DNA of 64,000 nt from Thermoflexus hugenholtzii (GTDB taxonomy: Bacteria > Chloroflexota > Anaerolineae > Thermoflexales > Thermoflexaceae): the NCBI RefSeq assembly GCF_018771565.1, contig NZ_CP076326.1, positions 1,178,001-1,242,000 of the forward strand. Reading direction: 5' to 3'. A program made the position numbers and the translations under genes. Under the pieces are notes generated by a model. The model was not told the DNA's origin and did not search any database. It saw only the letters and a list, made by a program, of their open reading frames with translations. Positions 36,469 to 40,666 of this stretch are shown piece by piece; within the stretch, counting starts at the first letter, position 1, and each line of letters starts with the position of its first letter.

Positions 36469-38313
36469 TCATTCCACCGTAACGCTTTTGGCCAGGTTGC
36501 GGGGCTGATCCACATCGCATCCGCGCAGCACCGCGATATGGTAGGCCAGCAATTGCAACGGCACCACCGCCACCACCGGCTGAAGCCAGCGGGGAGCATG
36601 CGGCACCGAGAGGACCACATCGGCGCGTGCGGATGCCGCCCGGTCGCCGTCGGTGACCAGAGCGATCACCTGCCCCCGGCGGGCCCGCACCTGCTCCATC
36701 TGGCTGAGCATCTTCTCATAAGTCACGGGGTCCTGCAACGCCAGGGCCACCGTCGGCATGCGCTCATCGATCAGGGCGATGGGCCCGTGCTTCATCTCCC
36801 CCGCCGGATACCCCTCCGCGTGGATGTAGCTGAGCTCCTTCAGCTTGAGCGCCCCCTCCAGGGCGATGGGGTAAAGCAACCCTCGCCCCAGGTAGAGGAA
36901 GTCCTCATAGCGGTAAAAGGCCCGGGCGACCTCCACCACCTCGGCCTCCCGGTCCAGGACCCGGCCCAGGAGGTCGGGCAGGCGGGCCAGCTCGCGGACG
37001 TGCTCGCGAAGCTCCTCCGGGCTCAGGGTCCCCCGCAGCTCGGCCAGCCGCAGGGCCAGCAGCAGCTCGTCCACGATGGAGGTCGTGAAGGCTTTGGAGG
37101 AAGCCACCCCGATCTCGGGGCCGGCGTGCATCAGGATGCAGGCATCCGCCATGCGGTGGGCCTGGGAGCCGATGACGTTGACGATGCTCCACAACCGCGC
37201 GCCCCCCTCCCGCGCTCGCTCCATCGCCGCCAGAGTGTCCACGGTCTCCCCGCTCTGGGAGATGGCCAGCACCACCGTGTCCGCATCCAGCACGGGGTCG
37301 CGATAGCGGAACTCGCTGCCGTAATCGACCTCGGTGGGGATGCGGGCCAGGGATTCAAAGTAGAACTTGCCCACCAGCCCGGCATAATAGGAAGTGCCGC
37401 AGGCCACGATCACGATGCGGGAGATGCGCCGCGCCGCCTCGGGGCTCAGCGGGACCTCCTCCAGCGTCACCCGGCCGCGCTCGAAATCCACCCGTCCCCG
37501 CAGCGTATCCGTGACGGCCCGGGGCTGCTCGTGGATTTCCTTATGCATAAAGTGCCGGTAGGGCCCCTTGGCCGCCGCCACGGGATCCCAGGGGATGGTC
37601 TGCACCGGCAGGTGCACCGGCTCCCCCTCCAAAGTCCACACCCGGACGTCGTCCCGGCGCACCACGGCCATCTGGCGGCTCTCCAGGAAGAGCATGCGGC
37701 GGGTGTGCTCCAGGATGGCCGGGATGTCCGAGGCGACGAACATCTCCCCCTCTCCCAGGCCGATCACCACCCCTCCGGCGTTGCCGATGCGGACGGCGAT
37801 GAGGCGATCGGGGTGGTCGGCGGAGAGGACGACGATGGCATGGGCGCCCTGCAGAGCCTGGAAGGCGCGGCGGGCGGCGGTCTCCAGGTCGGCCCCGGCG
37901 CGGAGGTGCGCCTCGATGAGATGGGCGATGACCTCGGTGTCCGTCTCCGAGGTGAAGCGATGGCCCTCCGCCTGGAGAGCCTGGCGCAGCTCGAGGAAGT
38001 TCTCCACGATCCCGTTGTGGATCACGGCGATGCGCCCCGTGCAATCCCGGTGCGGGTGGGCGTTATGATCCGCGGGGGCGCCGTGAGTCGCCCAGCGGGT
38101 GTGGCCCATCCCGATGAACCCGGAGGCCGGCTCCGCTTCCAGCAGATCCATCAGCTGGCGGATCTTCCCCGCGCGCCGCCGGACCTCCAGCCGGCCGTCC
38201 TGGACCACCACCAGCCCGGCGGAGTCGTAGCCCCGGTATTCCAGCCGTCTCAGGCCCTCGATCAGGATGGGCACCGCATCCCGGTGCCCGACGTATCCGA
38301 CAATGCCGCACAT
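36469..38313 (-). CDS. glmS: Glucosamine-6-phosphate synthase (isomerizing)
   Basis: 614 residues, standard length. Cys2 (MCGIVGYVG) is the glutamine amidotransferase nucleophile; HTRWATHG and NGIVENF are in the glutaminase domain. Two SIS domains follow: ACGTSYYAGLVGKFYFE, SQSGETVDTLAAM, SSKAFTTSIVDELLLA. The C-terminus ends DQPRNLAKSVTVE, the conserved tail that closes the active site. It makes glucosamine-6-phosphate from fructose-6-phosphate and glutamine. The start has GGGAGG six bases upstream. A self-cleaving glmS ribozyme occupies its leader, so product feedback is expected. Confidence 0.97.
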   Translation of the reverse strand: MCGIVGYVGHRDAVPILIEGLRRLEYRGYDSAGLVVVQDGRLEVRRRAGKIRQLMDLLEAEPASGFIGMGHTRWATHGAPADHNAHPHRDCTGRIAVIHNGIVENFLELRQALQAEGHRFTSETDTEVIAHLIEAHLRAGADLETAARRAFQALQGAHAIVVLSADHPDRLIAVRIGNAGGVVIGLGEGEMFVASDIPAILEHTRRMLFLESRQMAVVRRDDVRVWTLEGEPVHLPVQTIPWDPVAAAKGPYRHFMHKEIHEQPRAVTDTLRGRVDFERGRVTLEEVPLSPEAARRISRIVIVACGTSYYAGLVGKFYFESLARIPTEVDYGSEFRYRDPVLDADTVVLAISQSGETVDTLAAMERAREGGARLWSIVNVIGSQAHRMADACILMHAGPEIGVASSKAFTTSIVDELLLALRLAELRGTLSPEELREHVRELARLPDLLGRVLDREAEVVEVARAFYRYEDFLYLGRGLLYPIALEGALKLKELSYIHAEGYPAGEMKHGPIALIDERMPTVALALQDPVTYEKMLSQMEQVRARRGQVIALVTDGDRAASARADVVLSVPHAPRWLQPVVAVVPLQLLAYHIAVLRGCDVDQPRNLAKSVTVE

Positions 38314-38421
38314 GGCAGCCTCCCGAAATGAAGGGGGAATTTTCCGGAAGACCATCCTTCGCCCTTCCCGGGCCAGCGTCCGGCCGGGAGGGCCTGTCAG
38401 GAGGATCGATCGAGGGCCGCT

Positions 38422-38620
38422 GCCGGCCGTTTTGTCCCGCCGGTTGCCCGGCGGTTTTGTCGGCCGGCTTCTGGAGGGGGGAAGTAGGGGTCGCGGCCGG
38501 ACCCCTGGCGGCATCCGCCGAAGCCTCGATTTTCCCCGGCTCAGAAGCCGGGTTAGCCCCGCCGGAGCGGGGAACCGCCTCCCTCGTCACCCGCGGGAGA
38601 TCTCCCACGGGCCAGGCGCT
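38422..38620 (-). ncRNA. glmS ribozyme/riboswitch (GlcN6P-responsive)
   Basis: The antisense strand matches the glmS ribozyme core step by step. A|GCGCC marks the cleavage site (A at 38620, G1 at 38619). A 10-bp P1 follows (CCCGTGGGAG/CTCCCGCGGG), then GACGAGG, P2 (GGCGG with CCGCC), AUCGAGGCUUCGGCGGAUG, P3 (AGGGGTC/GACCCCT), and P4 at 38422-38468 with GCCGGCC/GGCCGGC, ACAAAA bulges and a GNRA (GCAA) tetraloop. It lies about 110 nt before the glmS start, on the correct strand. A pair of extra hairpins (about 38533-38574) is inserted between the 5' strand of P2 and AUCGA. In known examples glucosamine-6-phosphate acts as cofactor for cleavage, lowering glmS expression. Confidence 0.9.
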
Positions 38621-38704
38621 GGCTTCCCCCCGGATCCCCGCCTGACCATTACGAACCTCCTGAAGACTTGCAGGTTGTCCTGCGATTTTAGAACACGCCC
38701 CCGA

Positions 38705-39310
38705 TCAACCGAAGGCTGCGTGCAAAGCACAAAGGGCCGCGCGCAAGTCTTCCCAGAACCTCTGGAAGGATCGATCCATCCTCTCCGGCCTCAACACCTC
38801 CGCGATCGCCTCGCCGTATTCCGCGCCGCCCAGGATCGGCTCCACCCCCGCCGCACGGATCGCATTGCGCAGCGCATTTTTATACCGATCGCGCTCACAT
38901 TTGTAACGGAGAGGGCGTGGGCGAGCCCCTGGCACCACCCGAGGAAGCGCTTCGGCGTCCTCCAGATACCAGCGCTCGATGTGAGGATCCGGAACCGCAC
39001 AAACCAAGCGGAAAAGACGGGGCTCGATCCGAACCGCTTCCTCCTCCAGCTGACGACGGACTTGCGCAGCGCCTCTGCAATCCCCATCCACTACAACAAC
39101 CAGCACATCCGGTTGTGGCACCCACCCTTTCCGAATCTCTCTGAGGAATTGTCGCCACTCGCTCCAGACCTTGCTTCCATGAGTTGCGTTCCGAACATCC
39201 TCTTCGATCTCTACCCCGCACTCCCGAGCAACCCTCTTCGTCAGGCTCCGCACAAAGCGCTCGTGAGCGATATCTTCAAAGAAATATACCACCCGAAGAA
39301 CCCGACTCAT
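38705..39310 (-). CDS. DUF4276-like, TOPRIM-type protein
   Basis: 201 residues. E12 (VVYFFEDIAHERF) and the D75-x-D77 motif (VLVVVVDGDCRGA) match the metal-binding pattern of TOPRIM folds. DPHIERWYLEDAEAL is like the PEIExWLLAD segment of DUF4276 proteins. It would be a metal-dependent nuclease or a nuclease-derived effector. The start overlaps the stop of the AAA ATPase gene by 4 nt, so the two are produced together. The pairing resembles a split OLD nuclease or the AriA/AriB pair of PARIS. Assignment to DUF4276 is from memory of the motif, without a search. Confidence 0.7.
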   Translation of the reverse strand: MSRVLRVVYFFEDIAHERFVRSLTKRVARECGVEIEEDVRNATHGSKVWSEWRQFLREIRKGWVPQPDVLVVVVDGDCRGAAQVRRQLEEEAVRIEPRLFRLVCAVPDPHIERWYLEDAEALPRVVPGARPRPLRYKCERDRYKNALRNAIRAAGVEPILGGAEYGEAIAEVLRPERMDRSFQRFWEDLRAALCALHAAFG

Positions 39311-40599
39311 CCCCAGTCTCCACGCAAGATGCGCTGCGAGATCGAGGGTTCCTCCTCCTCCAGCGCCTCGCCCACAGCCGGACGGCGAAAGAGGCCCACG
39401 GCTTCCGTGAGCTCCTTAAACGAGCTGCTTCCGTCCCTCCGGACACATCGAATGAGAAGAGCTTCATCGCCCAGATAATCCGGAAGAAGAGGGGAATGCG
39501 TGTTGATGAGAACCTGCCTGCGTCGAGAGGCCTCCCGCAGCAGGTCTGCGATGATCTTTAACCGCCGGGGATGGACTCCGTTTTCTGGCTCCTCGAGGCC
39601 GATGACAGCAGCCGGATTGGAGGGGCTCAGGATCGCAATGAGCCCCAGCAGTCGCAGCGTGCCTTCAGAGATCAAGCGAGCGGAGAAATCCACTCCTCCC
39701 TCCCGGATCTTCAAACGGACTTTCCCCTCATCGGTTAGCTCGGTCGAAAATCCCTCCACCGAAGGAACCAGGGCCCGCAGGACGCGCTGCAGGTTGTCAA
39801 ACTGAAGCGGATCCCGGCGCTGGAGCGTGTAATAAAAGGCGGCGAGATCCCCTCCGGATGGGGTGAGAACCTCCACTTCTTTCACCGGGCTCTCCTCCCG
39901 CATCTGACGGGGCTCAAAATAATAGAACTGCCAGCTGGCCAATTCTTCGCGGAAGGCCACCAAGTGGGGATAATGAGGCGGATAAACCGGGAGGGAGACA
40001 ATCGTGTGATTCAACCCGATTTCATATTCCATCGGACGGGCCTGACCCTCCATCCGCAGCCGCAAACGATTTCCTATCCGCTCCAGAAAGGGACGGCGAC
40101 GCTCATCGGGGCGCAACTCCCCGCCAACTTCGGTCAAGGCCCGGAGGGATTCATCCTGAACGCGCAGGACTCCGGTCTTGGGGTGGATCGCCACTGTCAG
40201 GCGATAGCGCAGAAGACGCTCCGTGATCCGACGAGAGGATTTGGCCGGGCGCAACTCCCCATTGCCGCCTCGATAGATGTCCATCAACTGCTCCGCACGC
40301 CGGATCGCTGTATCGCTCAGCTCTACATCAACTTCCATAGTGAACTCCACATGATCCCGGCGCAACAGGCCTGGGAGCCCCTCCTCGCCGTAATAGAAAG
40401 CCTCCAGCGGATCCCCCCGATGCTCCCGAAAGGCATCCGCCAGAGAGGGCCGGGTCGCCATCCGGCTGAGCAGCCCGAGGGCATCGAACAGGTTGCTCTT
40501 GCCGCCGGCGTTGGGCCCGATGATCAGCGTGAGCGGACGGAGGGCCAGCTCCACGCCCCGAAGAGACTTATACCCATCGATCCGAATCCGCCGGATCAT
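39307..40599 (-). CDS. OLD/RecF-like AAA (ABC-type) ATPase
   Basis: 430 residues. Walker A is GPNAGGKSN (28-36) after the IRIDGYKSLRGVELAL opening. The signature-like LISEGTLRLLGLIAIL is followed by Walker B VIGLEEPENGVHP and the His switch INTHSPLLPDYL. This is the SMC/RecF/OLD-type architecture without its own C-terminal TOPRIM domain; that function is likely provided by the overlapping downstream gene. The ATG at 40599 begins MIRRIRIDG; an upstream in-frame start at 40638 is less typical. Possibly a defence ATPase sensing phage or DNA damage. Confidence 0.87.
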   Translation of the reverse strand: MIRRIRIDGYKSLRGVELALRPLTLIIGPNAGGKSNLFDALGLLSRMATRPSLADAFREHRGDPLEAFYYGEEGLPGLLRRDHVEFTMEVDVELSDTAIRRAEQLMDIYRGGNGELRPAKSSRRITERLLRYRLTVAIHPKTGVLRVQDESLRALTEVGGELRPDERRRPFLERIGNRLRLRMEGQARPMEYEIGLNHTIVSLPVYPPHYPHLVAFREELASWQFYYFEPRQMREESPVKEVEVLTPSGGDLAAFYYTLQRRDPLQFDNLQRVLRALVPSVEGFSTELTDEGKVRLKIREGGVDFSARLISEGTLRLLGLIAILSPSNPAAVIGLEEPENGVHPRRLKIIADLLREASRRRQVLINTHSPLLPDYLGDEALLIRCVRRDGSSSFKELTEAVGLFRRPAVGEALEEEEPSISQRILRGDWG

Positions 40600-40666
40600 T
40601 CCTGGCTCCTGGGCTTTCCCGGGCGCCGCTCTCGGCATCTACAGAACACCCCCGGATCTTTTCCAT

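Follow-up and report, generated by a model that had tools for sequence, protein, structure and literature searches.

The glmS ribozyme is a textbook metabolite-dependent ribozyme, and the leader of glmS in a 64,000-nucleotide stretch of Thermoflexus hugenholtzii DNA (the window) carries what reads as a copy of it, interrupted by two perfect hairpins. Is this a working member of the family, and what might its additional parts be for? A search with RF00234 matched positions 38412-38631 of the minus strand over the complete model (1-167) with 43.7 bits (gathering score 37, E 6.5e-07), and the subtype model R1, a covariance model of the P2 and insert domain, gave 78.1 bits at the same locus. The RF00234 element is a single copy in the Thermoflexus genome; it lies in sense orientation in the leader of glmS, which is the next gene downstream. 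Both the leader structure and the family match exceed chance, and a predicted ribozyme is supported by the full-model match above the cut-off together with the glmS gene directly behind it. A preliminary description of the locus had proposed this identity, this orientation and a cut between 38620 and 38619; the family search, the downstream gene (ATG 38313, TIGR01135 796 bits) and the position in the Rfam alignment agree with all three. It was likewise right about the phylum, Chloroflexota, about the place of the core elements that it had aligned by eye and about the two hairpins at 38557-38572 and 38535-38552, and it erred on P1, which has 9 bp and a G.U instead of 10 bp. Our reading, which we would put at a probability of just under 0.8, is that Thermoflexus glmS is controlled by a predicted GlcN6P-activated, self-cleaving glmS ribozyme of a Chloroflexota subtype with two additional hairpins and a further helix, P0. 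The more informative parts of the element (P0, the anti-Shine-Dalgarno pairing and the paralogues on glnA and ada) lie outside the coordinates of the preliminary description.

The core segments of the family are all found in the window: A/GCGCC at 38620-38615, GACGAGG at 38588-38582, AUCGA at 38530-38526 and CGGCGGAUG at 38520-38512 (Table 1). The window contains complementary segments from which the double pseudoknot of P2.1/P2.2 and P3.1 could form. Nucleotide 5 and its partner in P2.2 change in step: across loci, C goes with a partner G in 33/33 cases, and of 75 sequences with A at nucleotide 5, 74 have A as the partner too, a coupling kept almost without exception by insert-type and canonical Chloroflexota ribozymes alike. 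A-1 is invariant across the curated loci, the curation rule itself having required it. An unconstrained MFE fold of 38634-38412 included P0, P1, both hairpins and P4 (z = -3.9 vs shuffles), and the ribozyme core was identical across the Thermoflexus species examined. Upstream of the leader, at 38705-40638 of the minus strand, we observed a two-gene module composed of an AAA ATPase (AAA_21) and a DUF4276-like protein, which resembles the candidate defence system HEC-01 in PADLOC.

Table 1. Features of the glmS leader and its surroundings (window coordinates)
Feature	Coordinates	Strand	Basis
Possible upstream ORF; AGGAGG 38661-38656, ATG 38649, 20 codons, runs through the cleavage site	38587-38661	minus	similar frame in other Thermoflexus leaders
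glmS ribozyme (RF00234), whole element	38412-38631	minus	Rfam full-model match and R1 match
P0 5' strand GGGGGGAAG, upstream of the cleavage site	38623-38631	minus	complementary to 38476-38484
Cleavage site, A-1 (38620) / G+1 (38619)	38619-38620	minus	position in Rfam alignment
P1 hairpin, 9 bp plus G.U, loop GAUC	38589-38612	minus	sequence reading; MFE fold
Core segment GACGAGG	38582-38588	minus	sequence reading; invariant in 81-row alignment
P2 5' strand GGCGG	38575-38579	minus	helix 1 of counted structure, 97.9% of cells paired
UU joint	between P2 5' strand (38579-38575) and hairpin A (38572-38557)	minus	sequence reading
Inserted hairpin A, 6 bp and UCCG loop in the window	38557-38572	minus	covariation at all 7 pairs; arm-swap p = 7e-19
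Conserved linker CUAA between the hairpins	38553-38556	minus	YUAA in 100/103 loci; likewise in Rfam-selected loci
Inserted hairpin B, 7 bp in the window	38535-38552	minus	covariation at all 6 counted pairs; arm-swap p = 8e-19
GAAAAUCGA, junction and P2.1 3' strand	38526-38534	minus	sequence reading, alignment
UCGGCGGAUG, P2.2 strand	38512-38521	minus	sequence reading, Rfam match, alignment
P2 3' strand CCGCC	38507-38511	minus	sequence reading, Rfam match
P3 hairpin; loop GGCCGC can pair with 38420-38415 (P3.1)	38487-38505	minus	sequence reading
P0 3' strand CUUCCCCCC, part of the P3/P4 linker and overlapping with the possible anti-SD segment	38476-38484	minus	cross-pairing; MFE fold
P4 with GCAA tetraloop and ACAAAA bulges	about 38422-38468	minus	sequence reading, Rfam match, MFE fold
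Shine-Dalgarno GGGAGG of glmS	38319-38324	minus	sequence reading
glmS CDS, 614 aa, ATG 38313-38311	36469-38313	minus	TIGR01135 795.8 bits; Pfam SIS and GATase_6

The two-hairpin insert is the hallmark of a conserved Chloroflexota subtype. Its order runs from the P2 5' strand through UU, hairpin A, YUAA, hairpin B and GAAAA to UCGA. Hairpin A has 7 bp in 81 of 103 loci and mostly ends in a tetraloop (GNRA in 53 of the 83 tetraloops counted), hairpin B ranges from 11 to about 70 nt, and one relative (L021) lacks it. RNAalifold recovered P2, A and B without guidance, with compensatory change at 16 of 19 pairs. In the alignment, 95.7% of cells were paired vs 69.7% in shuffles, and the covariation score was 0.742 vs 0.231 after shuffling (0/500) and 0.12-0.18 with slid partners; neither stem survives when its arms are taken from different genomes (p about 1e-18). 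Since loci L031-L148 had been picked by the pattern TAACN{8,38}GAAAATCGANNNNTCRGCGGAWGCC, conservation of the pattern letters was judged only on the Rfam-selected loci L001-L029, L174 and L178. The inserted hairpins would most likely stabilise the double-pseudoknot core (P2/P2.1/P2.2).

How far does this architecture reach? R1 matched 230/396 genomes and 145/222 genera of the window's class, which rules out an insert confined to the Thermoflexus genome or genus; the preliminary description had raised the question of whether other phylum members share the hairpins, and they are common in the class and covary. In a phylum-wide sample, strong R1 matches outside the class were limited to four families (f55, f56, f66 and f92), the remaining families giving weak matches only, and insert-motif loci from public contigs were mostly deposited as Anaerolineae, Caldilineaceae, Chloroflexi or similar. 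Nor is the insert confined to Chloroflexota: it turned up in 5/100 genomes of the phylum to which MAGs deposited as Bipolaricaulota belong and in 4/40 genomes of the class that includes a MAG deposited as Actinomycetes, small pockets that we read as transfer. RF00234 itself was found in 34/60 relatives and 125/400 Chloroflexota genomes, so the phylum as such is no surprise: Chloroflexota is ordinary ground for the glmS ribozyme class. The earlier suggestion that this copy would extend the known range of the class is thus weak.

Besides the insert, the subtype has an extra helix, P0, that draws on sequence 5' as well as 3' of the cut. Its strands in the window, 38631-38623 and 38484-38476, are complementary (duplex -20.3 kcal/mol). 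Across 104 non-redundant insert-type loci, the native pairing exceeded pairings with the linkers of other genomes (p = 2e-15, where, as for the linker values below, the loci are related and the events not independent), and the same cross-pairing test found no such signal in 13 canonical Chloroflexota copies (p = 0.23). The strands are wholly different between some loci, as in L144 (UGUCAGA/UCUGACA), L129 (CCAUGACG/CGUCAUGG) and L052 (UGUUUAGG/CCUAAACA).

The linker that provides the 3' strand of P0 also pairs with the Shine-Dalgarno sequence (SD) of the downstream gene. Over 90 loci, it did so better with its own SD than did the linkers of other genomes (p = 0.0013 when judged by stem score and 0.0011 when judged by energy), and pairing with the whole leader gave p = 2.3e-5. 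The signal of linker-SD pairing is a modest one, with a median rank of 0.38 against cross pairings, and was not found in the canonical copies. Clear cases are L125 and L096, both on glnA, L015, L008, L142 and L116; in L125, L096, L015, L008 and L142 the pairing is perfect or near-perfect over 9-15 bp. In 83 of the 90 loci, three or more bases of the linker are claimed by both P0 and the SD, so that one pairing excludes the other. The window linker offers CCUCCaGAAG to UUUCgGGAGG (-11.2 kcal/mol, one mismatch); because this CCUCC is not conserved in other Thermoflexus species, the anti-SD step is weakly supported for the window. Pairing of the linker with an SD-like motif further upstream (-70 to -18), considered on account of CUUCAGGAGG and CCUCCAGAAG in the window, showed no covariation (p = 0.72) and was rejected. 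On the other side of the ribozyme, an SD-like motif is enriched 35-55 nt 5' of the cut (72/104 loci vs 15 in shuffles). Some loci have very short upstream ORFs, e.g. AUGUAG, and the Thermoflexus ORF crosses the cut site.

Together, these features suggest how the subtype may work. With plentiful GlcN6P, the RNA would cut at 38620/38619; the 5' strand of P0 would then be on a separate short fragment and the linker freed. For many of the relatives, and possibly for the window too, the free linker would go on to base-pair with the downstream SD, which would prevent translation. Such a block would act in addition to exposure of the 5'-OH to RNase J-type decay. In Bacillus subtilis, GlcN6P-induced cleavage leaves a 5'-OH, and RNase J1 degrades the RNA (PMC3997798). 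The strong P0 of the window might, however, retain the cut 5' fragment instead of releasing it.

Cleavage and RNase J-type decay could also be all there is to an ordinary glmS ribozyme in which P0 and the hairpins scaffold the fold, and linkers match SDs simply because the former are pyrimidine-rich and the latter purine-rich. To this simpler account we would give somewhat less than even odds. Decay by RNase J is the established route, and the modest size of the linker-SD signal, like the lack of conservation of CCUCC within the genus, agrees with it. It explains less readily why a linker pairs with its own SD better than foreign linkers do on both measures, why several loci reach 9-15 bp of perfect or near-perfect pairing, and why the canonical copies are without the signal.

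It is far less probable that the leader is a degenerate, inactive relative that has survived merely as a structured RNA or an anti-SD element. In favour of this stands the modest Rfam score, 43.7 against a cut-off of 37, but that low score is due to the two-hairpin insert, and R1 gives the same locus 78 bits; every core segment is intact, and the core is unchanged across the Thermoflexus species examined. Nor does it help to view the hairpins as a repeat or mobile element inserted locally in one genome and unrelated to the ribozyme: they are near-perfect palindromes and missing from canonical ribozymes, yet the two-hairpin plan with its UU, YUAA and GAAAA joints is class-wide and covaries, by which this idea is already refuted and keeps hardly any probability. 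A GlcN6P-responsive, self-cleaving ribozyme of the two-hairpin subtype thus remains our preferred reading of the leader.

RNAs of this type also occur on other genes. Second copies with an altered active-site strand, A/GCGGCUG, were observed at L033, L035, L051, L078, L080, L081, L092, L096, L125, L145, L216, L218, L221, L222 and L225. Second copies sort cleanly by downstream gene. Those with A/GCGGCUG lie upstream of glnA in 10/10 cases with a callable gene in the first set and, besides, at L216, L218, L221, L222 and L225; three of the encoded proteins scored 514-557 bits with TIGR00653 (cut-off 429). Some genomes with an altered glnA copy hold a GCGC copy on glmS, e.g. Bellilinea caldifistulae (L058/L145), and one genome (G352) has both copies in a row (L219), its glnA copy reading A/GCGACUG. 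By inspection, a shifted P2.2 is possible in the glnA copies, with GCUG pairing to CAGC and a bulged G. As judged by eye, the glnA leaders L033, L035, L051, L080, L081, L092 and L145 often contain GGAAGGG, complementary to a linker CCCUUCC, and often a GGCAUGCC hairpin just 5' of the SD; the two may possibly form an expression platform.

Another set, A/GCG[GA]CUGG with CACGAGG and AUCGGAU, lies upstream of a gene for an AraC-HTH/O6-methylguanine methyltransferase of the Ada/Ogt type at 10 loci (L251, L255-L257, L260-L262 and L264-L266), and Pfam HTH_18 and DNA_binding_1 were found in 5/5 tested proteins. Neither the glnA nor the ada/ogt paralogues have the canonical core (A/GCGC[CA] and GACGAGG), and both are for this reason classed as relatives rather than as glmS ribozymes. 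Intact GCGC copies are found on other genes, too. At L267 and L270, copies with the two hairpins stand upstream of glnA; both loci belong to the class of the MAG deposited as Actinomycetes, an unrelated lineage in which the link to glnA seems to have arisen independently. Further intact copies precede a gene encoding PF01645, a glutamate synthase domain (L227 and L229), a DegT-type sugar aminotransferase (L007 and L199) and an FAD-linked oxidase (L010), and GCGC copies precede a GTPase-SIS fusion gene (L002, L108, L133, L147, L235 and L239), at L002 followed by glmS. The gene at L227 and L229 is probably glutamate synthase, provisionally so in that the full model scored far below its cut-off on genes cut by the fetched stretch. 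We tentatively propose, with distinctly more doubt than confidence, that Chloroflexota glmS-type RNAs are a radiated riboswitch family, in which P0 would make cleavage an irreversible strand-release switch freeing the anti-SD, the glnA (A/GCGGCUG) and ada/ogt (A/GCG[GA]CUGG with CACGAGG) paralogues would have changed ligand, cleavage chemistry or both, and intact copies on glnA and probably glutamate synthase would place nitrogen assimilation under GlcN6P feedback.

The window element belongs to the glmS ribozyme family, within which its architecture and genomic use set it apart as a variant. With the RF00234 ribozymes of B. subtilis, B. anthracis and Thermoanaerobacter tengcongensis it has in common A/GCGCC, P1, GACGAGG, P2, AUCGA, CGGCGGAUG, P3, P4 with its internal-loop purines and the location in a glmS leader. 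Unlike them, the subtype has two hairpins before AUCGA and forms P0 from sequence 5' of the cut, and many relatives have a linker complementary to the SD. The canonical Chloroflexota ribozymes (L149-L169) share phylum, gene and core with the window, but in them P2 is joined to AUCGA by just a few bases, with neither the inserted hairpins nor a signal for P0. Translational riboswitches with an anti-SD platform likewise have a strand that alternates between an upstream helix and the SD; they bind reversibly, whereas the present subtype would switch by covalent cleavage that removes the competing strand. A 2011 survey by McCown, Roth and Breaker reportedly found the glmS ribozyme family to be strikingly uniform and almost always (nearly exclusively) on glmS. 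It is also reported to describe Deinococcus-Thermus variants with additional stems within the catalytic core; these may share part of the window architecture, in which case the insert would be partly known already. Our plasmid searches gave no usable match for the Deinococcus ribozymes. In the open-licence literature, we found no association of a glmS ribozyme with Anaerolinea or glnA and no description of P0, the anti-SD pairing or the glnA and ada copies.

In summary, a known RNA switch seems to have been remodelled and put to use on other genes. The subtype is present in over half of one large class, and its P0 offers a testable way in which cleavage could control translation. The natural active-site variants on glnA and ada/ogt are material for how the cofactor site of a ribozyme changes its specificity. 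Glutamine synthetase is a classical target of allosteric inhibition by GlcN6P, and RNA-level control of glnA by GlcN6P would be the genetic counterpart of that inhibition.
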